This document shows positions 2,703 to 11,071 of a DNA stretch of 11,071 bases, piece after piece. The position numbers were made by a program, and so were the translations under genes. Origin of the DNA: Candidatus Cloacimonadota bacterium (GTDB taxonomy: Bacteria > Cloacimonadota > Cloacimonadia > Cloacimonadales > JAFGVF01); assembly GCA_016938155.1 (NCBI GenBank), contig JAFGVF010000133.1, positions 1-11,071 on the forward strand, read 5' to 3'. Position 1 is the first letter of the stretch. Each line of letters begins with the position of its first letter. Below the pieces are notes generated by a model, which was not told where the DNA came from, ran no database searches, and was given only the letters and a program-made list of their open reading frames with translations.

Positions 2703-4192
2703 TAGAATACATTATTATTGCTATAATTTTTGGTGCCATACTGATTGTAGTATTAGCAATGAATGCAAATAAAGAAAAGAAACTGAGAAGTGAACTGGAG
2801 CAATTGGAGCGAAAAGCTTCCGATTTGGAACTTACTCGAATGCGTCTTGAGACTCAAAACAGTGAGTTACTCAAGAGAAGTGAGTTATTGGAGCAATTCC
2901 GAAGTGAAAAAGAGCAAAAGAACGAAGCCCTTAAAGAAGCTACAACTCAGCTCGTTGCAAAAAATGAAAGAATTGAACAGCTATTAAAAGAACTTGAAAA
3001 ACTGAATGAGAAAATAGATGCTTTTCAGAAAGAGAATTCCTCTATTAAAGAGCAATTGGCAAGAACTCTTACAACCCTTGATGAAGAAAAAAAACAAACA
3101 ATTGAGAAACTGAAATTACTTGAAGACAGCAAAGAAAAGCTAAAACTTGAGTTTGAAAACCTCGCTAACAAGATATTTGATGCTAAGAGTGAAAAGCTTA
3201 CCAGTACAAGCAAAGAAAGCTTGGACGGAGTTTTGAAACCGCTAAAAGAACAACTGACAGATTTTAAGAAAAGAGTTGATGATATATATGACAAAGAGGC
3301 AGAGGAGCGGGGATTTCTAAAGAAAGAGATTTCTGATCTCAAGAAGCTTAATGAAAGAATTAGCGAAGATGCTCTTAATCTTACTTCTGCTTTGAAGGGT
3401 GATAAGAAGTTCCAGGGCGATTGGGGTGAAGTTCAATTAGAGATGATTCTGGAGTATTCCGGACTTACCCGTGGAGTTGAATATGATGTCCAGGTTTCAC
3501 TGACAAGCGAAGAGGGTGATACTTTCCGTCCTGACATAATAGTACATCTTCCCGAACAGAAGGATATTGTAGTTGATTCTAAGGTTTCCCTTGTCGCATA
3601 TACTCAGTATTGCAGCACAGATGATCCGGTTCAGAAGCAGAAAGCTTTGAATGAGCATATAACTGCAATCCGTACGCATATAAAACTTTTAAGTGCTAAG
3701 AATTACCAGAATCTGAAAGGGATAAATACACTTGATTTTGTTTTAATGTTTCTTCCTATAGAAGCTTCCTATTTCGTAGCGATAAATGAAGACAGGGAGC
3801 TATTCCAAGAGGCAATGAGCAGGAATATCTTAATTGTTTGTCCTTCAACTCTTCACATGACTCTGAAAATGATTTACAATATCTGGAAGTATGAACATCA
3901 AAACAAGAATGCTAAAGATATCGCAGAACGGGGCAGGCTACTTTACAATAAATTCAGGGGCTTTGTAGAAACTTTTGCCTCAGTAGGCAAGAAGCTGGAA
4001 GCAGCAACAAAGGACTACGATAAAGCTTTCAATCAGCTTTCAGAAGGAAAGGGTAACTTAATCGCTCAAGCGAATGAGTTGACTAAGTTAGGAATTCAAC
4101 CTGATAAGCCCATAGATAAAGAACTTGCTGAAAAAGCGGAAACATCTGCCCTATTAAGTATTGAAGAAAAAACAGAGGAACATGATGAGTAG
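2699..4192 (+). CDS. rmuC: RmuC-family protein (nuclease-like, membrane-anchored)
   Basis: A 497-residue protein, a usual length for RmuC. Residues 3-20 are a hydrophobic N-terminal anchor, residues about 24-225 are an almost continuous coiled coil, and residues about 230-465 are the RmuC domain. Recognisable blocks are KFQGDWGEVQLEMILE (237-252), RPDIIVHLP...DIVVDSKVSL (277-298), FLPIEASYFVAI (351-362) and SRNILIVCPSTL (374-385). The fold is related to PD-(D/E)xK nucleases; by position Glu244, Asp279, Asp293 and Lys295 are candidate active-site residues. In E. coli, RmuC limits inversions at short inverted repeats and has been linked to restriction of foreign DNA; the biochemical activity is not well settled. 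The start ATG 2699 follows GGAGG (2690-2694) and overlaps the small upstream gene by 4 bases. The final 8 bases overlap the next gene. Confidence 0.93.
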   Translation: MIEYIIIAIIFGAILIVVLAMNANKEKKLRSELEQLERKASDLELTRMRLETQNSELLKRSELLEQFRSEKEQKNEALKEATTQLVAKNERIEQLLKELEKLNEKIDAFQKENSSIKEQLARTLTTLDEEKKQTIEKLKLLEDSKEKLKLEFENLANKIFDAKSEKLTSTSKESLDGVLKPLKEQLTDFKKRVDDIYDKEAEERGFLKKEISDLKKLNERISEDALNLTSALKGDKKFQGDWGEVQLEMILEYSGLTRGVEYDVQVSLTSEEGDTFRPDIIVHLPEQKDIVVDSKVSLVAYTQYCSTDDPVQKQKALNEHITAIRTHIKLLSAKNYQNLKGINTLDFVLMFLPIEASYFVAINEDRELFQEAMSRNILIVCPSTLHMTLKMIYNIWKYEHQNKNAKDIAERGRLLYNKFRGFVETFASVGKKLEAATKDYDKAFNQLSEGKGNLIAQANELTKLGIQPDKPIDKELAEKAETSALLSIEEKTEEHDE

Positions 4193-6551
4193 AATAAAAA
4201 CCATTTATATCATAAATCACAGTCACACCGACATTGGCTACACAGAGCTTCAACACCAGATTCGTGCCTGGCATATAGATTTTATTAAACAGGCACTGCA
4301 AATAATCAAGCAGGACAAAACCTTTGTTTGGAATTGTGAAGCTTTCTGGGCTGTGGAGAAATTTTTACAAGAGTGCGGGAAACCCGAAAGAGAGAAGTTT
4401 TTTAAAGCTGTGCTAAACAAAAACATTGGAATCACAGCAGGCTATCTCAATTTCAATGAACTAATCGATGAATCAACTTTAGACAATATGATAGAACGAG
4501 CAGTATCCACGAGCAAAAAATACGGTTTTGAGATTGATACTGCCATGACTGCAGACATAAACGGGGTTGGTTGGGGATTTGCTCAATCAATGGTGAAACA
4601 TGGAATCTCAAACTATTTTTCATGCGTTCATACTCATCACGGGATGTGGCCGGTAAACCGTAAACAATACCCGTTTAAGTGGATTGCCCCGGATGGTAAA
4701 GAACTTCTCGTTTGGAACGGAGAACATTATCATTTCGGCAATGAACTCGGATTTGCAGAACGAGCTGGCTCAAGTTATACAATAAAAGATGACTGTGATG
4801 CTCATTCAGTTTATTATGATCAATGGAAGCTTGCAGAAACACGCATCCCACGATACCTTAAGATGCTTGAAGATGAAGGATATGAATTTGATTTTGTTCC
4901 TGTAATGGTTTCCGGACTAAGGACTGATAATTCCCCACCATCTGCCGAAATCCCTAAAATGATAAAGAGATGGAATAAACAACATAATGATATCTGCATT
5001 TTAGAAATGATCACCCTGTGTGATTTCTTTAGTAGAGTACGGATAAGCGATGTCTCTATCCCTTCGTACAAAGGGGATTGGCCAGACTGGTGGTCAGATG
5101 GTTTTGCCTCTGACCCGGATGGAGTAAAGATTTATCGCCAGGCACAAAGGACTTTTGAGTTATACAGGATATTGGATACAGATTCTATAAATAACGATAT
5201 AGATATATACGATAAACTTGCTCTTTATGCAGAGCATACCTTCAGCCATTCCGATTCAATGAGCCAGCCGTGGAGTGACCCTGTGAAACAGATTAGTCTG
5301 ATAAAGAGGGGATATGCAGTTTCTGCGTTTGAAAAAGCATGTATCCAGTTAAGACATAAACGGGAGGAATTGGGGGAAACATTCCTTAAGTTTGGACGCA
5401 AACCCGTTTTCAATCTTATTAATCCCTATTCATGTGATTATAAGGGAGAATTCAGACTCTTTATCGGTTGGTTTGAGTGGAATGAGTTAAAACTTAACAA
5501 TGGAGCAGCTGTAATTGAACCGATTACGGGGGATATTATCCCATCTCAAATGAGATATGTACCTGGGGGTGTTGAATATTGCATTTATCTTCTTTTAAAT
5601 GAGAAACAGGAATTGCAGCTTGAATTAGTGCCCCATCAGAACCTACCAATCAGGTTTGTTAACAGCTTCTATCAACGAGGAACAGATGGTGTTTCGGATA
5701 TTAGCGGTCAACTAAAAGAAAACTTTACTACATATATTGAGACAGATTATTTTCGTATTAGCTGGGATTACGATTGGGGAATCAATTCCTGGTTCAACAA
5801 GCAGGATACACAAGAGCTGATAACCGGAGAATTCGGAGCTTTTACTCCAATATATGAACTCACTCCCGTAAAAGATAATCGGGATATCAATAGTGTTCGC
5901 GGTCAGATGGGCAGAAATAGAAAGGGATTTAATGTCGAAAGAACCATCGGCAAGTTGAAAAATGCCATCATTAAGTCAGTTGGTGAACTTTGGATTGAAG
6001 CTGAGTTGGACTACTATTGCAAGGGTATGGAATTCTACAAGGTTCAAATAAAACTGTGGAAGAATGTTCCCGAAGTAGATGTTAAGATTGTATTGCATAA
6101 GGAAAGTATCTGGGCACCTGAAAATCTTTATATAGCTCTTCCCTTTACTACCGGAGAGAGTGAGGAACTCTGGATTGATAAAGCCGGTTGTATCATGAGA
6201 CCAATGATTGACCAACTTCCGGGAACCTTAATTGATTTCTACACAGTGCAAACCGGATTCAGACTCCAATCACGGAAACATGGTTTATCAATTGGAATGC
6301 CCGATACACCTATTCTTCAATTGGGCTCTCTTGAATTCGGAGAAAGAGAGTTGTGCCGACCCGGTATGACAACATCTCCCGGTTATCAATTTGCCTGGGT
6401 AATGAACAATTATTGGGAGACAAATTTCAATGCATCTCTGGGTGGATTCTATGAGTTTAACTACAGCATTGCCCTAAACCAATTAAACAGCGAAGATGCC
6501 CTAAAAGAGATGCGTAGAAAAATGCTGGGAGCGTTAACCTTAAGAACTTAA
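4185..6551 (+). CDS. Glycoside hydrolase family 38-like protein (DUF5054 type), putative alpha-mannosidase
   Basis: A 788-residue protein. The N-terminal HSHTDIGYT (12-20) matches the family 38 HxD metal-binding motif, with His14 and Asp16 as candidate zinc ligands. Asp124 in TADINGVGWG is the candidate catalytic nucleophile by position, and EHTFSHSDSMS (350-360) contains the likely distal zinc-binding histidine (His351 or His355). An alpha-helical middle region (about 320-400) and a long beta-rich C-terminal part (about 400-788) complete the usual layout. Known family members remove alpha-mannose residues with retention of configuration; the actual substrate here is unknown, and the divergent DUF5054 group has little biochemistry. 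No signal peptide is seen, so it probably acts on internalised or cytoplasmic oligosaccharides. ATG 4185 is preferred because AGAGGA (4174-4179) lies 5 bases upstream; ATG 4182 is adjacent and a TTG at 4161 has poorer support. It overlaps rmuC by 8 bases and ends in tandem TAA codons (6549-6554). Confidence 0.8.
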   Translation: MSRIKTIYIINHSHTDIGYTELQHQIRAWHIDFIKQALQIIKQDKTFVWNCEAFWAVEKFLQECGKPEREKFFKAVLNKNIGITAGYLNFNELIDESTLDNMIERAVSTSKKYGFEIDTAMTADINGVGWGFAQSMVKHGISNYFSCVHTHHGMWPVNRKQYPFKWIAPDGKELLVWNGEHYHFGNELGFAERAGSSYTIKDDCDAHSVYYDQWKLAETRIPRYLKMLEDEGYEFDFVPVMVSGLRTDNSPPSAEIPKMIKRWNKQHNDICILEMITLCDFFSRVRISDVSIPSYKGDWPDWWSDGFASDPDGVKIYRQAQRTFELYRILDTDSINNDIDIYDKLALYAEHTFSHSDSMSQPWSDPVKQISLIKRGYAVSAFEKACIQLRHKREELGETFLKFGRKPVFNLINPYSCDYKGEFRLFIGWFEWNELKLNNGAAVIEPITGDIIPSQMRYVPGGVEYCIYLLLNEKQELQLELVPHQNLPIRFVNSFYQRGTDGVSDISGQLKENFTTYIETDYFRISWDYDWGINSWFNKQDTQELITGEFGAFTPIYELTPVKDNRDINSVRGQMGRNRKGFNVERTIGKLKNAIIKSVGELWIEAELDYYCKGMEFYKVQIKLWKNVPEVDVKIVLHKESIWAPENLYIALPFTTGESEELWIDKAGCIMRPMIDQLPGTLIDFYTVQTGFRLQSRKHGLSIGMPDTPILQLGSLEFGERELCRPGMTTSPGYQFAWVMNNYWETNFNASLGGFYEFNYSIALNQLNSEDALKEMRRKMLGALTLRT

Positions 6552-6683
6552 TAACTCCCTTTAATATTTTCTAAAAACTGCTTTCCCCTGCATACTCAAA
6601 ACAAGGAAATTCAGGGTTAGATTATACCTGTTTCTATTGTTTTTCCAAAGCTTCATTTTTCTATTCAACAATGCGGAGTCTCT

Positions 6684-6769
6684 CCACTGTTTTTCCACTG
6701 TGTCCCCACTGTCCACCCACTGTTTCAGTGGGTGGACAGTGGGGACACAGTGGCAGAGCAGTGGGAAAA
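6684..6769. repeat. Perfect palindrome made of 11-base tandem units
   Basis: The arms at 6695-6722 and 6726-6753 are exact reverse complements over 28 bases, separated by the loop TTT. Outside these, after a 5-base poorly matching interval (6690-6694 against 6754-6758), a further 6 bases pair in register (6684-6689 with 6759-6764). The right side is four 11-base units, each beginning CAGTGG (starting at 6726, 6737, 6748 and 6759); the left side is the mirror image, with CCACTG starting at 6684, 6695, 6706 and 6717. A transcript from either strand would fold into a very stable hairpin, and the DNA could extrude a cruciform. There is no T run after either arm, so it is not a standard intrinsic terminator. 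Its role is unknown; 3' end protection of converging transcripts or a protein-binding array are possibilities. Confidence 0.95.
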
Positions 6770-6860
6770 TTGCCTGTGGATGAATAGAATGATAAAGGAT
6801 AAGAAAAGGACACGAAAAGAAGCTAACTGACGAAAAAGCCACTGAGTACAACTTCATTAT

Positions 6861-6898
6861 CAGAATTTCAGAAGGATTCCTATTCTGGGGCATTTTTT
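6861..6898 (+). terminator. Weak candidate terminator on the plus strand
   Basis: CAGAAT (6861-6866) can pair with ATTCTG (6882-6887), or CAGAA (6869-6873) with TTCTG (6883-6887). GGGCA and six T residues (6893-6898) follow. The stem is short and about 310 bases downstream of the last plus-strand gene, so this is a low-confidence call. It would be the only T-tailed hairpin available to the plus-strand transcripts in this interval. Confidence 0.25.
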
Positions 6899-6906
6899 CA
6901 CTATAT

Positions 6907-6942
6907 AAAAAAGCCCCCTGACAGATAACTCAATCAGGGGGC
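6907..6942 (-). terminator. Intrinsic terminator of the minus-strand surface protein gene
   Basis: Read on the minus strand, GCCCCCTGA (from 6942) is followed by a 12-base loop and the exact complement TCAGGGGGC (ending at 6913), then six T residues (6912-6907). The nine-pair GC-rich stem with a T tail lies 17 bases after the TAA stop of the minus-strand gene. On the plus strand the stem is followed by CATATACTT rather than a T run, so it should act in one direction only. Confidence 0.92.
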
Positions 6943-6959
6943 ATATACTTAGAATCCGA

Positions 6960-9900
6960 TTATTTCATCAGAATCATTTTCTTTGTCTTTGTATAAGTAC
7001 CGGCCTCCATCTTAAAGAAGTAGATTCCGCTACTAACATTATGATTATCGTTGTCTTTTCCGTTCCAGATAACCTTGTGGTTTCCTGCATTATAATCATC
7101 ATTAATCAGGGTCTTAACCTTTTGTCCTTTGATATTATAAATATCAATCTTAACTCTTTCATTCTGTTTCAGGTCAAAACTGATAGTTGTTTCAGGATTA
7201 AAGGGGTTAGGATAATTAGTATATAACTGAGTTGCTCCAGGGATTACTAACTGTTCTTCATTGCCAACTGCACCACCGTCGCTTGAGATTATAATTTCAT
7301 CAAGCAGAAGGAAGAAAGTTTGAGCTGAAGTACAATTGAAACCAACATATATGAGTTGGTCAGCATAATCTGACAGGTCAAATTCATAATAACTCCAAGC
7401 TAGAGGAACAGCAATAGGTTCTGTACCACCAATCTGTGTGAAATTAACTGGGTCATTTCCTGTGGTGGAAACACTTACACTCAACAACTCCGGACCATAC
7501 TGAGTAGTATAAGAACGAGCCCAGAAACTGAGTTGAGTGGCATTTTCACCTAATTGAAGGTGCGGAGTAATCAACCAGTCGTCATTTGTACCTGAATCTG
7601 CAGCAAAACATGCGGCATATTTATCTCCACTATATGCAGAAGCAAACATGAGCGGAGGAGTTGTTGCAGATGGGTTGAAAATGATATATGCCATTGCACT
7701 GTTTTCACCAGGGAAATCAATTCCGTTATTGAAGCCATAAGTTGTTTCACCATCTTCATCATAACATGTCCAAGGATAGAAACTGGTTACGAAATTATCG
7801 TATCCCTCAAAGCTCTCTGAAATTATAGGAGCATCGACTTCTATATGTGTGAAGTTGATAGAGTCACAAGGTGCTGACTCTCCTGGAGGTGCAGTATATA
7901 CAGTACTTACTTTATATTCATAAGTTTGTCCAACAACAGCATCATAATCTATATACATAGTACTTGTTACTGTAGCTGTATTAAGAATTACATCATCTCG
8001 GAAAACATTGTATCCTGCAAGTGATCTAACAGGGGCAATCGGTGCATCCCAACTCAACTCTATGCCATTGAAGAGACTTTCGCAAGCGAAATTAATCGGT
8101 GGTAAGTAATCTTCTGGTGGAGTTAGGTTGTTGGATATGATTGATAAAGCATATTCTCCGATACTAGCTCTGGTTTCCATATCCCTTTTCTTGAAAGGAC
8201 GCATTCCGGTTGGAACATTCTGGAAATGAGAAATACGAACAAAATAGAAACCGCTTTCTGTAATATCTATATCGATCTGTGGCTGGTCTGCACCATGAGA
8301 ATCGTCATCAGCCATGATGTACAACATATCATTTACATTATAATCCGGATCAAAGTATGGTCCGTATAGACACATGTATGTATCAAGTTGAGAGCCGTTT
8401 ATAGCCTCGGTGTACATTGATACATTTGCCGGTGCAGTCTGCCAGAATACATACCAATCTATTTCATTTTCCGGATAAATCATCTCTTCGTAATCATTAA
8501 GATTAAGCTGAACCTGCGTGGCAGTAGTCGGAGTATCATTACCATCAAGGAAGTAACCTCTACCACTTATTGGTAGATTATGAACCTGTCGCGGTCTGGT
8601 ACTTCTCTGGTCATCAGGAGCATTGTCGGTTATTACTATCTCTGCGTTCTTCCACCCCTCTGAAGTAGGCGTAAAGAAAACACTGATATCTACTGTTTCC
8701 AGATAATTGATCTGAACAGGATAGGTGTTGTTATCAATGAGAGTAAATTCACCGGCATCATCTCCTTGAATACTGATCGTTGCATTAATATACAGTGAAT
8801 CCTGCCCGACATTTCTTATCGTGATTGTTCGTGTATCTGAATCCGAACCAATATTTACAAATCCGAAATTCAGGGATGAAGGGGTAATAATCGGATATGG
8901 ATTTTCTCCGGTAGGTAACATAAACAATCTTGTATTAGGAATAAATGCCATAAGAGTTCCGGTTGGTGGAGCTGCAGGGTCGGCATTAACGCTGTCGCTG
9001 TAATGGTAGATACTTCTATTGTTTGGTCTGGCAGAGCAATAGAACTCTTCAGTACTACTACCATAAGCCGGTTGATTTTCTTCAACGGCTATTACAAGAT
9101 TCTGACTACCATCATAGAGGAACCAGCTGGTCTGGTCCAAAGTGAAATCGATCCAACCTGCACCTGTGGGAGCAGTGATTGTACCATTCCATACTTCAGT
9201 TAAGCTTGTAAGCGGTACCCATGAAGTTGTGGTAGCAAACTCATTCTGGTCGGTCATACCAATGTAGATAACCCACTGAGTAGAATTATTCAGGGTTGCA
9301 GCACCATTGTAATAGAAGCTGACACTTGTAATGAAACCGGGCATTCCTACTTCCTGCAATGTGTGTATTGATTGAGAATAGGAATAACCATAGTACGGCT
9401 CTATCGGAAGATGTTTATCAACCAACTGTTCATCTCCAATAATCACCATACCGGCAGGATGTGTCTCAAATGTCCAAATAGGGCAATTAGCAGCATCGCC
9501 AACGAAGTTATATGGTATCACTCTCCAGAAATATTGAGTGCTGTATTCAAGAGGTGTTGTGAGTGTGTAAGTAGTTGTGAACCCCACATCCAACCCATCA
9601 ATGAAAGATGTTGGAGGGTTATTTGTTCCCAAATAGAGTCTATATCCATCAGGGAAGTTACCTCCACTTGCCCACTCCAAATCCAGTACAGGATTCATAT
9701 TTAACGCACCATTAACCGGATAAACAACAGTTGCAGGATTGGGTATATCGTTGAAAGTAGTAAATGACCATACAGGACAGTTTGTTGCCTGCCCAATAGC
9801 ATTGTATGGTGTTATCATCCAATTATACACAATACCGGGTTGTAAACCTGTATAAGTGAAACTGAGAGCATTTCCGGCATCAACCATGTCATAAACATCT

Positions 9901-11071
9901 GTTGGTGGATTATCTGTACCGACAGACACATAGTAACCACTTGCAGCAACAGCAGGAATCCAGCTGAGATTGCCGGTCATTGCCACACCGGTTGCATTGT
10001 TGGCTGGTGCAACTAATGATGTGGGAGCCGGTGGTTGGTCATTATCCCAAACACTGAAATCATCTATGGAAATATCACTATAATAATTAGAGCCGGTTAT
10101 ACCACGGAATCTTACACGAACTATATCTCCGTAGTTCCCGAGGCTAATATCTGCGAAATGCCAATCTTGTCCCTGATCACCACTTATAGCTGGGAATATA
10201 TCCTCTACCCAAGCTGTACCGTTCCAAATATCAAAGTGTAAATCACCCATTGTTTGACCATACATATTATACCAAATTGACATAAATGGATTAGTCATTG
10301 TTGAAACATTTAAAGGTGGTGATAATAAGTCAAACCTCATATTGAGATATCCGGAAGCCTCGGTATAGGCAAAATATCCCGTACCGGAAGTATGGTCACC
10401 AGCTTGTGGACCGGTATCAACAGATGATGTTGATGTTCCAAATGACCAATTCTGTTGGTCATCTGTACCCTGTTCCCAACCTATAGGTAATGCACCTGTA
10501 TCAAAAGTTTCCGAATAAGGGAATACTGAAACTGTCTGATTAAATCCTGTACCTGTTAAGGGGACATTACTTACTTCATTAGCATCTGTGATGACTATCA
10601 TTGTTGTAAGAGGTCCTTCGTTTATAGGAGCAAAGGCAACAGTGATTGTGGCAGTTTGAGCAGTTGCTAAGGTTAATGGATAAGTGTTTGTATCTGTTAA
10701 CACAAAGTCAGTTGCATTACTAAGAGCTACAGAATTGATAACCAAGTCACCAATACCAGAATTTTGAAGCGTAAATGTTACCGGGTTAGTTTGAGTATTT
10801 GTGAATACTGTACCGAAATCGTAAGATAACGGTCTGTAATCTAACTCAGGACCTACCGGTAAATCATCAAAATAGAACATTGTATTCGGAATGAACATGC
10901 GTACACCACCTGCTGTTGGTGGTGCTGCAGGGTCGGCATTTACGGAGTCGCTGTAGTGATAAATACTCCTATTGGTCGGGGTTGCTGTGCAATAGAAATC
11001 TTCTGCGGAAGAACCGTAAGCCGGTTGATTTTCTTCCACAGCCACAACAAGGTTGTCAGTATTGTTATACA
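6960..11071 (-). CDS. Large multidomain secreted surface protein with type IX secretion sorting tail (5' partial)
   Basis: The visible part is 1369 residues, counted from the first full codon at 11069-11067; the frame is open to the window edge, so the true start and any signal peptide lie outside. Domains in approximate order: the end of a first repeated module (1-63); a choice-of-anchor D/HYDIN-like Ig domain (79-176); a jelly-roll domain of the choice-of-anchor J or MAM type (184-342); two fibronectin III-like domains (346-439 and 442-537) that share the ending NCP(V/I)W(S/T)F; the complete second copy of the module (541-717); a second anchor D domain (723-838); a pre-peptidase-C-like domain (841-978, with DWYVFW and GFYFVRIS); a third fibronectin III-like domain (988-1079); a cleaved-adhesin/choice-of-anchor J domain (1080-1263); and the type A sorting tail (1283-1369: NYPNPFNP, IYNIKGQKVKTL, SSGIYFFKM). 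Such tails direct export through the type IX system and attachment to, or release from, the cell surface. No catalytic motif is seen; adhesion or binding of polymers is an inference. A protease or glycosidase domain could still lie in the missing N-terminal part. It ends in a strong terminator and converges on the plus-strand cluster. Confidence 0.93.
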   Translation of the reverse strand, partial: YNNTDNLVVAVEENQPAYGSSAEDFYCTATPTNRSIYHYSDSVNADPAAPPTAGGVRMFIPNTMFYFDDLPVGPELDYRPLSYDFGTVFTNTQTNPVTFTLQNSGIGDLVINSVALSNATDFVLTDTNTYPLTLATAQTATITVAFAPINEGPLTTMIVITDANEVSNVPLTGTGFNQTVSVFPYSETFDTGALPIGWEQGTDDQQNWSFGTSTSSVDTGPQAGDHTSGTGYFAYTEASGYLNMRFDLLSPPLNVSTMTNPFMSIWYNMYGQTMGDLHFDIWNGTAWVEDIFPAISGDQGQDWHFADISLGNYGDIVRVRFRGITGSNYYSDISIDDFSVWDNDQPPAPTSLVAPANNATGVAMTGNLSWIPAVAASGYYVSVGTDNPPTDVYDMVDAGNALSFTYTGLQPGIVYNWMITPYNAIGQATNCPVWSFTTFNDIPNPATVVYPVNGALNMNPVLDLEWASGGNFPDGYRLYLGTNNPPTSFIDGLDVGFTTTYTLTTPLEYSTQYFWRVIPYNFVGDAANCPIWTFETHPAGMVIIGDEQLVDKHLPIEPYYGYSYSQSIHTLQEVGMPGFITSVSFYYNGAATLNNSTQWVIYIGMTDQNEFATTTSWVPLTSLTEVWNGTITAPTGAGWIDFTLDQTSWFLYDGSQNLVIAVEENQPAYGSSTEEFYCSARPNNRSIYHYSDSVNADPAAPPTGTLMAFIPNTRLFMLPTGENPYPIITPSSLNFGFVNIGSDSDTRTITIRNVGQDSLYINATISIQGDDAGEFTLIDNNTYPVQINYLETVDISVFFTPTSEGWKNAEIVITDNAPDDQRSTRPRQVHNLPISGRGYFLDGNDTPTTATQVQLNLNDYEEMIYPENEIDWYVFWQTAPANVSMYTEAINGSQLDTYMCLYGPYFDPDYNVNDMLYIMADDDSHGADQPQIDIDITESGFYFVRISHFQNVPTGMRPFKKRDMETRASIGEYALSIISNNLTPPEDYLPPINFACESLFNGIELSWDAPIAPVRSLAGYNVFRDDVILNTATVTSTMYIDYDAVVGQTYEYKVSTVYTAPPGESAPCDSINFTHIEVDAPIISESFEGYDNFVTSFYPWTCYDEDGETTYGFNNGIDFPGENSAMAYIIFNPSATTPPLMFASAYSGDKYAACFAADSGTNDDWLITPHLQLGENATQLSFWARSYTTQYGPELLSVSVSTTGNDPVNFTQIGGTEPIAVPLAWSYYEFDLSDYADQLIYVGFNCTSAQTFFLLLDEIIISSDGGAVGNEEQLVIPGATQLYTNYPNPFNPETTISFDLKQNERVKIDIYNIKGQKVKTLINDDYNAGNHKVIWNGKDNDNHNVSSGIYFFKMEAGTYTKTKKMILMK
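8931..9116 (-). repeat. Repeated module, copy 2 (the part matching copy 1)
   Basis: Encodes 62 residues from YDGSQNLVIAVEENQPAYG to FIPNT, one codon shorter than copy 1. The shared DNA blocks lie at 8971-8987 and 9064-9083, each exactly 1953 bases (651 codons) from the matching block of copy 1. Upstream of this matching part the complete module begins near 9450 (VIIGDEQLVDKHLPIEPYYGYSYSQSI), which shows what the missing part of copy 1 should look like beyond the window. Confidence 0.93.
10881..11069 (-). repeat. Repeated module, copy 1 (partial, at window edge)
   Basis: Encodes 63 residues of the surface protein from YNNTDNLVVAVEENQPAYG to FIPNT. It matches copy 2 closely in protein (identical NRSIYHYSDSVNADPAAPPT) and in DNA, sharing 17 identical bases at 10924-10940 and 20 at 11017-11036. 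The match reaches the window edge, so the copy continues outside. It is directly followed by a choice-of-anchor D domain, as is copy 2. Confidence 0.93.

Follow-up and report, generated by a model that had tools for sequence, protein, structure and literature searches.

REP/BIME elements are palindromes tagged with GTAG or CGTC and associated with RAYT transposases, and the gene for TnpA_REP (Y1) is itself flanked by copies. MITEs are short, non-coding and dispersed, and carry terminal inverted repeats. In parC of plasmid R1, two sets of five 11-bp repeats are bound by ParR, and regulators of the OmpR/PhoB family use tandem operators composed of 11-bp direct repeats. The length of REPs is given as 20-40 bp (PMC3733652).

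In this work, we describe a palindrome of 11-bp units in a window of 11,071 nucleotides (the whole stretch of DNA that was analysed, from a Candidatus Cloacimonadota bacterium), and the repeat family to which it belongs. The family is a dispersed module found only in two congeneric genomes. Judging from sequence comparison, it may be a duplex-DNA module, probably derived from a mobile element, that serves the cooperative binding of a putative CAGTG-binding protein, a reading to which we give about an even chance.

The palindrome in the window

The features of the window are as follows.

4161 to 6551, plus strand: gene with a glycosyl hydrolase family 38 (GH38) N-terminal domain (domain scan)
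6661 to 6672, no strand: outer left end, CTATTCAACAAT, frequent among the copies of the family and matching the right end in register
6684 to 6722, minus strand: left arm, four CAGTGG units at 11-bp pitch; spacers from the centre outward GGTGGA, GGGACA, GAAAAA
6723 to 6725, no strand: loop TTT at the dyad centre, the centre base being 6724
6726 to 6764, plus strand: right arm, four CAGTGG units; spacers GGTGGA, GGGACA, GCAGAG
6776 to 6787, no strand: outer right end, GTGGATGAATAG, a partial mirror of 6661 to 6672 about 6724
6821 to 6851, minus strand: solitary box of type 2, TTGTACTCAGTGGCTTTTTCGTCAGTTAGCT, its CAGTG starting 120 bp from the dyad centre
6907 to 6942, minus strand: separate terminator-like hairpin, GCCCCCTGA / TCAGGGGGC, followed by TTTTTT (by eye)
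6960 to 11045, minus strand: gene for a large secreted protein with MAM and Ig-like domains and a Por_Secre_tail (domain scan)

A preliminary description of this DNA had reported 28-base complementary arms around TTT and eight CAGTGG units at an exact 11-bp pitch, and a recount confirmed this: 6695-6722 and 6726-6753 are complementary at 28 of 28 positions with TTT between them (6723-6725), and the hexamers start at 6684, 6695, 6706 and 6717 on the minus strand and at 6726, 6737, 6748 and 6759 on the plus strand. It is also correct that the inner spacer variants, GGTGGA and GGGACA, are copied exactly between the arms; the third spacer differs (GAAAAA versus GCAGAG). The symmetry extends beyond the arms, as the outer ends at 6661-6672 and 6776-6787 share the centre 6724, and the whole palindrome measures about 127 bp (6661-6787). 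A ninth CAGTGG (6839-6844, minus strand) is part of the conserved box, and boxes similar to that of the window occur at six other loci (L069, L074, L077, L087, L092 and L099); the window copy is thus a complete module, consisting of box and array. The hexamer occurs 12 times in the whole window, compared with a mean of 3.83 and a maximum of 11 in 200 shuffles, and the fold of 6641-6807 reaches -95.6 kcal/mol, compared with -43.7 +/- 4.1 in 200 shuffles (z = -12.8). A 110-aa ORF overlaps the palindrome and shows no sign of being a gene.

The palindrome sits between two genes that point at each other, the GH38 gene and the MAM/Por_Secre_tail gene. The earlier remark that it lacks the T run of a terminator holds: no terminator-like site was found in a scan of 6400-7100, and the palindrome does not have the GC-rich stem plus T run of an intrinsic terminator. 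Note that the hairpin at 6907-6942 has a 12-nt loop, which lies beyond the limits of that scan. It is likely the terminator of the minus-strand gene itself and no part of the module, and a minus-strand transcript would meet it before the palindrome. Within the large secreted-protein gene there is also a 147-bp direct repeat (8962-9108 and 10915-11061, 78% identical), which probably represents duplicated domains.

A dispersed family and its placement

The genome of the window (G000) is a MAG of 2.38 Mb in 427 contigs that is 72% complete, and its congener (G001) is 83% complete. Among hits that bear an organism name, the best one for the RmuC protein encoded in the window belongs to 'Candidatus Zophobacter franzmannii' (57% identity), a name from the Cloacimonadota. 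In G000, CAGTGGNNNNNCAGTGG gave 38 matches and the reversed pattern 1; three CAGTG at 11-bp pitch gave 85 matches and the reversed control 0, and, when up to two mismatches were allowed, 145 matches as compared with 15 in the control. The array pattern matched 7 times in G001. A pattern for the box matched 35 times in G000 and 10 times in G001, and added copies in which the array is degenerate or absent. Among 35 stretches and the window, we obtained 32 clusters with at least four CAGTG, 29 in G000 (window included) and 3 in G001; the palindrome is therefore not a one-off, and the earlier suggestion of a dispersed intergenic repeat family is borne out by dozens of copies in two genomes. When the exact pattern, which would miss decayed arrays, was searched in 124 genomes of the phylum, it matched only in G000, G001 and G030, the last with one single plain match, and the other 121 of 122 genomes had none. 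Some pairs of copies are closely alike while their flanks are unlike (L094/L095, 90% identical over 197 bp; L079/L087, 88% over 214 bp), which indicates that the module has spread by copying to new places in the genome, apparently as a unit of about 200-300 bp.

When 17 symmetric copies are aligned on the dyad, each arm consists of four to five repeats of CAGTG plus a six-base spacer. Wherever the available sequence reaches far enough, the outer ends, with the consensus TTGWTGAATAG, lie in the same register on both sides. Of the unit proposed at first, then, the 11-bp pitch stands, and the CAGTGG core gives way to CAGTG followed by six variable bases. The arrays end in mirrored TTCAACAA/TTGATGAA. 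Two kinds of box were recognised, box 1 being CAGTGNNNNTWATGCGGAGTT and box 2 being CAGTGGTATTTGCAATAACTTA and its relatives, and in most of the symmetric relatives a box is found 120-122 bp away from the centre of the dyad. By eye, the copies were sorted into three types. In type A, the distance from box 1 to the dyad is mostly 122 bp. In type B, the array lies ten bases nearer, the cores are more decayed and some copies have a second box on the far side. Type C comprises the window, L077 and L088, with box 2 on the other side; its distance to the dyad is 120 bp in the window, 122 bp in L077 and, by eye with CAGTA replacing CAGTG, 122 bp in L088. At one locus (L069, reverse-strand 1577-1960), an alternating string of box 1 and box 2 precedes the array, as if boxes can multiply.

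Two further observations concern the same genomes. First, G000 contains another palindrome family, in which the 11-bp units have CAGGGG as their core and the mirrored ends are CCTGCCTGGCAG, located at L088 3230-3320 (G000:C314) and L230 about 690-760 (G000:C112); its pattern matched 8 times on these two contigs and not at all in G001. Second, at four loci across both genomes (L077 start, L083 end, L102 about 85-1440, and L224), the module is adjoined or interrupted by an insertion sequence whose pair of ORFs (139 and 263 aa) looks IS3-like by eye.

Placement was counted for 45 copies oriented by their box, leaving out L073, L086, L098 and L102, to which no box was assigned, and using ORFs of at least 150 aa without a gene caller. 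The next gene beyond the array runs in the same direction as the module in 25 of 32 cases (p = 0.002), 13 copies having no scored gene there; this replaces a value of 28/34 in which some copies had been given an array-based or default orientation. Behind the box, 18 genes run in the same direction and 21 away. Gene starts face the module at 46 of 71 scored flanks (25/32 beyond the array and 21/39 behind the box). Among the 26 copies with both flanks scored, 10 lie between divergent genes, 13 between tandem genes and 3, including the window, between convergent genes. The tandem cases alone, 9 along the genes and 4 against (p = 0.27), are not significant; hence we claim a lean towards 5' flanks and no proven direction, and the window copy, located between two 3' ends, is an exception to this lean.

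The neighbouring genes were also considered as a possible regulon. We scanned 29 flanking proteins, mostly encoded by the genes beyond the array, and one array-overlapping ORF, 6 of these 30 being without a Pfam match. The domains beside copies include a DNA glycosylase, a PhoU-like domain, a citrate transporter, an aminotransferase, urocanase, phosphotransacetylase, a tRNA synthetase and trigger factor. Because the genes beyond the array are unrelated by their Pfam domains, no regulon can be recognised, and this reading was rejected.

CAGTG arrays at 11-bp pitch are also present elsewhere. A scan of genome contigs gave at least 112 loci, among which similarity groups were drawn from the matches listed; most of the other loci among the 80 that were read looked by eye like plain tandem repeats. 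One group is a Sphingobacterium-type family of at least 18 loci (L107, L108, L112-L114, L121, L146, L150, L161, L176, L183, L187, L194, L195, L197, L203, L207 and L208), with arrays inside predicted hairpins; all 10 titled loci are from Sphingobacterium, and of five Sphingobacterium genomes searched, four had 25-33 array matches and the fifth 2. Another dispersed family comprises at least six loci (L109, L131, L147, L151, L175 and L214), all five titled ones being from one Chitinophagales MAG (G129), which has 56 matches, with CAGTGGCGCAT units and mirrored GGGATATC ends. In 394 further genomes from the phylum of G125, CAGTG matched in three (once each) and the reversed pattern in five. One of these five, G307, has 11 matches to the reversed control GTGAC at a pitch of 11 bp, which may represent a further dispersed array family built on another core. 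In viral contigs, CAGTG matched 39 times at pitch 11, compared with 106 and 80 for two other pentamers, 22 times at pitch 10 and 10 times at pitch 13, and the box pattern matched 14 contigs. A universal CAGTG code was rejected, as these controls do not mark the pentamer as special beyond the genus. Since arrays of other pentamers exist, the shared CAGTG beyond the genus may be coincidence, and the controls offer no grounds for assuming common descent.

Constrained cores and a phased box

In type-A copies, the CAGTG cores are constrained more than the spacers. The 14 type-A copies that were also found by the box pattern have 105 of 110 cores intact; type-B copies, whose cores are decayed, stand outside this count. 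Over all copies the value is 131/134, which is biased by the fact that copies were found through their cores, so that the type-A count is the fairer one. Pairwise identity among type-A copies is 0.978 (97.8%) in cores and 0.706 (70.6%) in spacers, and it falls to 0.555 for the DNA that separates the box from the array (12 copies, 66 pairs).

A single orthologous site in the two species allows a more direct comparison. At L076 (G000) and L101 (G001), the module lies between the same two genes in a stretch that is 81% identical over 3.3 kb, and the two sites agree at 43 of 45 core positions, 25 of 27 box positions and 29 of 42 spacer positions, compared with 24 of 59 between box and array and 204 of 286 after the array. 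Because L101 was found by its four intact cores, we also give a corrected figure for cores, 23/25 as against 29/42 for spacers, which is a weak difference at one locus (p = 0.036).

The distance between box and array is fixed and helically phased. When the dyad-to-box distance was fitted between 118 and 135 bp for the best core match, it was 122 bp in 12 of 14 type-A copies, the exceptions being L084 (121) and L076 (132); the solitary CAGTG box and the dyad centre are thus separated by about 11.5 turns of the helix, on a grid of about 10.5 bp, across poorly conserved DNA. Over a set of 14 values that we chose as one per subfamily or divergent element, the distance from box to first unit was 61-62, 71-73 or 81-83 bp, with nothing between; a value of 52 at L224 is an insertion junction without an array unit, and was excluded. 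A period of 10.5 bp fits best, and such regularity was not reached by any of 20,000 random sets, although the values are not fully independent owing to the shared ancestry of the copies. The result is unchanged when two lone units are dropped (12 values). When the test is confined to 8 values, 9 random sets in 20,000 are equally regular, and the number is 43 in 20,000 if the first unit of L101 is taken to be a stray CACTG located 56 bp from its box.

Readings of the module and comparison with known systems

Of the explanations offered at the outset, the best-supported mechanism, in view of core constraint, phasing and the absence of covariation described below, is a series of protein-binding sites aligned along a single helical face. 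The module comprises a box about 120 bp from the dyad and two arrays of opposite orientation, each with four to five CAGTG sites. Their 11-bp spacing places all sites on roughly one side of the DNA. A putative multimerising protein could bind CAGTG cooperatively along both arms and at the box, the latter contacted by looping, and the resulting looped or filament-like complex might organise DNA or tune neighbouring promoters on behalf of the host. Against a protein reading stand the decayed cores of type B, the lack of a recognisable regulon, the non-significant orientation among tandem genes, the weak corrected core test at the orthologous site, the loss of regularity when the stray CACTG is counted, and the position of the window copy outside any 5' region. 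A more elaborate version, which we regard as rather unlikely, is a lineage-specific nucleoprotein system in which dispersed modules nucleate filaments or loops of one CAGTG-binding protein, a self-spreading site having turned into a chromosome organiser or promoter insulator.

A problem arises from the fact that core constraint among dispersed copies would also be expected if a transposase reads the sites. The module might then be a selfish, non-autonomous miniature element with an array at each end that serves the transposase as its site; the autonomous parent would be lost or unassembled, and the cores would be kept only for movement. The size of the copies and their unrelated flanks suit such an element, as do the mirrored TTCAACAA/TTGATGAA that close the arrays, the decay of some copies (type B) and the greater richness of G000 over G001 (85 versus 7 by array, 35 versus 10 by box). 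However, on one side the box is found beyond the mirrored end, which means that ends and element do not coincide, and seven matches to Y1_Tnp in the two incomplete genomes had no array or box within the 1.8-3.3 kb around them. In addition, cores have been kept at a fixed site in the orthologous copy, which leans towards a host protein over a transposase, at one locus. We consider the selfish element possible, though doubtful.

Readings based on RNA fare worse. A transcribed hairpin might stabilise, terminate or regulate transcripts, with an 11-bp pitch derived from the A-form helix; the fold is very stable, and with the lean towards 5' flanks copies could lie in leaders. Such a hairpin should keep its pairing, but spacers match within an element no better than between elements (0.696/0.702, 0.333/0.315, 0.300/0.463 and 0.607/0.608, within/between). 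In 13 full copies, 155 of 312 spacer cells are paired, compared with a permuted mean of 165, and the G-U and A-C mismatches (53 and 43) are near their permuted values (48.8 and 39.2), with no clear strand-specific excess of G-U. Compensatory covariation between arm spacers was not found in the 17 symmetric copies, 13 of them full, and pairing is therefore not maintained in the family. No Rfam family matched at gathering scores, there is no terminator-like site, and the box-to-array distance is phased like B-DNA. We therefore rejected the RNA hairpin as an explanation and consider an RNA element of any such kind improbable. The proposal that the hairpin protects two converging transcripts meets the same objections, and moreover only 3 of the 26 copies with both flanks scored have a convergent setting and the minus-strand gene has a terminator-like hairpin of its own ahead of the palindrome.

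The perfect arm symmetry of the window is exceptional in the family. It had been taken to imply either inverted duplication or maintained pairing, which fails for the family with its non-covarying spacers and may hold for the inner two units of the window. The second spacer GGGACA, present on both arms of the window, is found at that position in none of the 16 other symmetric copies. A template switch across a hairpin is a mechanism able to make such a pair, and could be its origin here.

A related alternative is that an HUH enzyme, or another enzyme that is structure-specific, recognises the hairpin once it is extruded as a single strand or a cruciform, as in REP elements. The perfect inner palindrome of the window and the presence of Y1_Tnp genes in both genomes would fit, but spacers are unpaired in many copies and no Y1_Tnp gene has flanking arrays in the stretches examined, which makes this reading very improbable. 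Finally, a one-off rearrangement or assembly artefact, for which one might cite the several copies at contig ends, where repeats tend to lie, is refuted by dozens of copies, two genomes and one shared site, and has practically no chance of being right.

Compared with known systems, the binding-site module resembles REP/BIME elements in comprising many dispersed intergenic palindromes, but here the palindrome measures about 127 bp, is composed of 11-bp units and is accompanied by a separate box, and none of the copies was seen to have a Y1 gene next to it. An unscored look at the alignment revealed no GTAG or CGTC tag at the outer ends, and identification as a REP/RAYT system was rejected on the seven Y1 genes without arrays and on size (6661-6787). 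Like MITEs, the module is short, apparently non-coding and dispersed with unrelated flanks. It also has mirrored ends, but with a conserved box beyond them these may not be the borders of the mobile unit; unlike in MITEs, the cores are constrained, and no parent was found. With parC/ParR it shares two arrays of 11-bp duplex sites, which are direct in parC but opposed here and present in dozens of copies; no partition domain was found among 34 window and flanking proteins scanned. OmpR/PhoB operators likewise combine a short core with a spacer, repeat with a pitch of 11 bp and lie near genes, whereas the module has far more sites, dyad symmetry and a fixed distant box, and lacks a common regulon. 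The arrays of Sphingobacterium and Chitinophagales are dispersed, share pentamer and pitch and lie in predicted hairpins, but their spacers and flanks are other than in G000 and G001.

The titles and abstract openings of the literature retrieved mention no counterpart of a phased two-array module with a distant box. Dispersed palindromic repeats are known, and this module, whose pairing is not maintained, appears to be a variant of them. If a protein reads the array, the module offers a bait for a DNA-binding protein that multimerises, from a phylum that has received little study, and would be a case of a repeat that has carried an array of its own binding sites to the vicinity of dozens of genes. 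Palindromes scattered through bacterial genomes are commonly interpreted as hairpins; in this family, it is not the pairing that is kept but the sites, together with their phase along the helix and their distance from a separate box.
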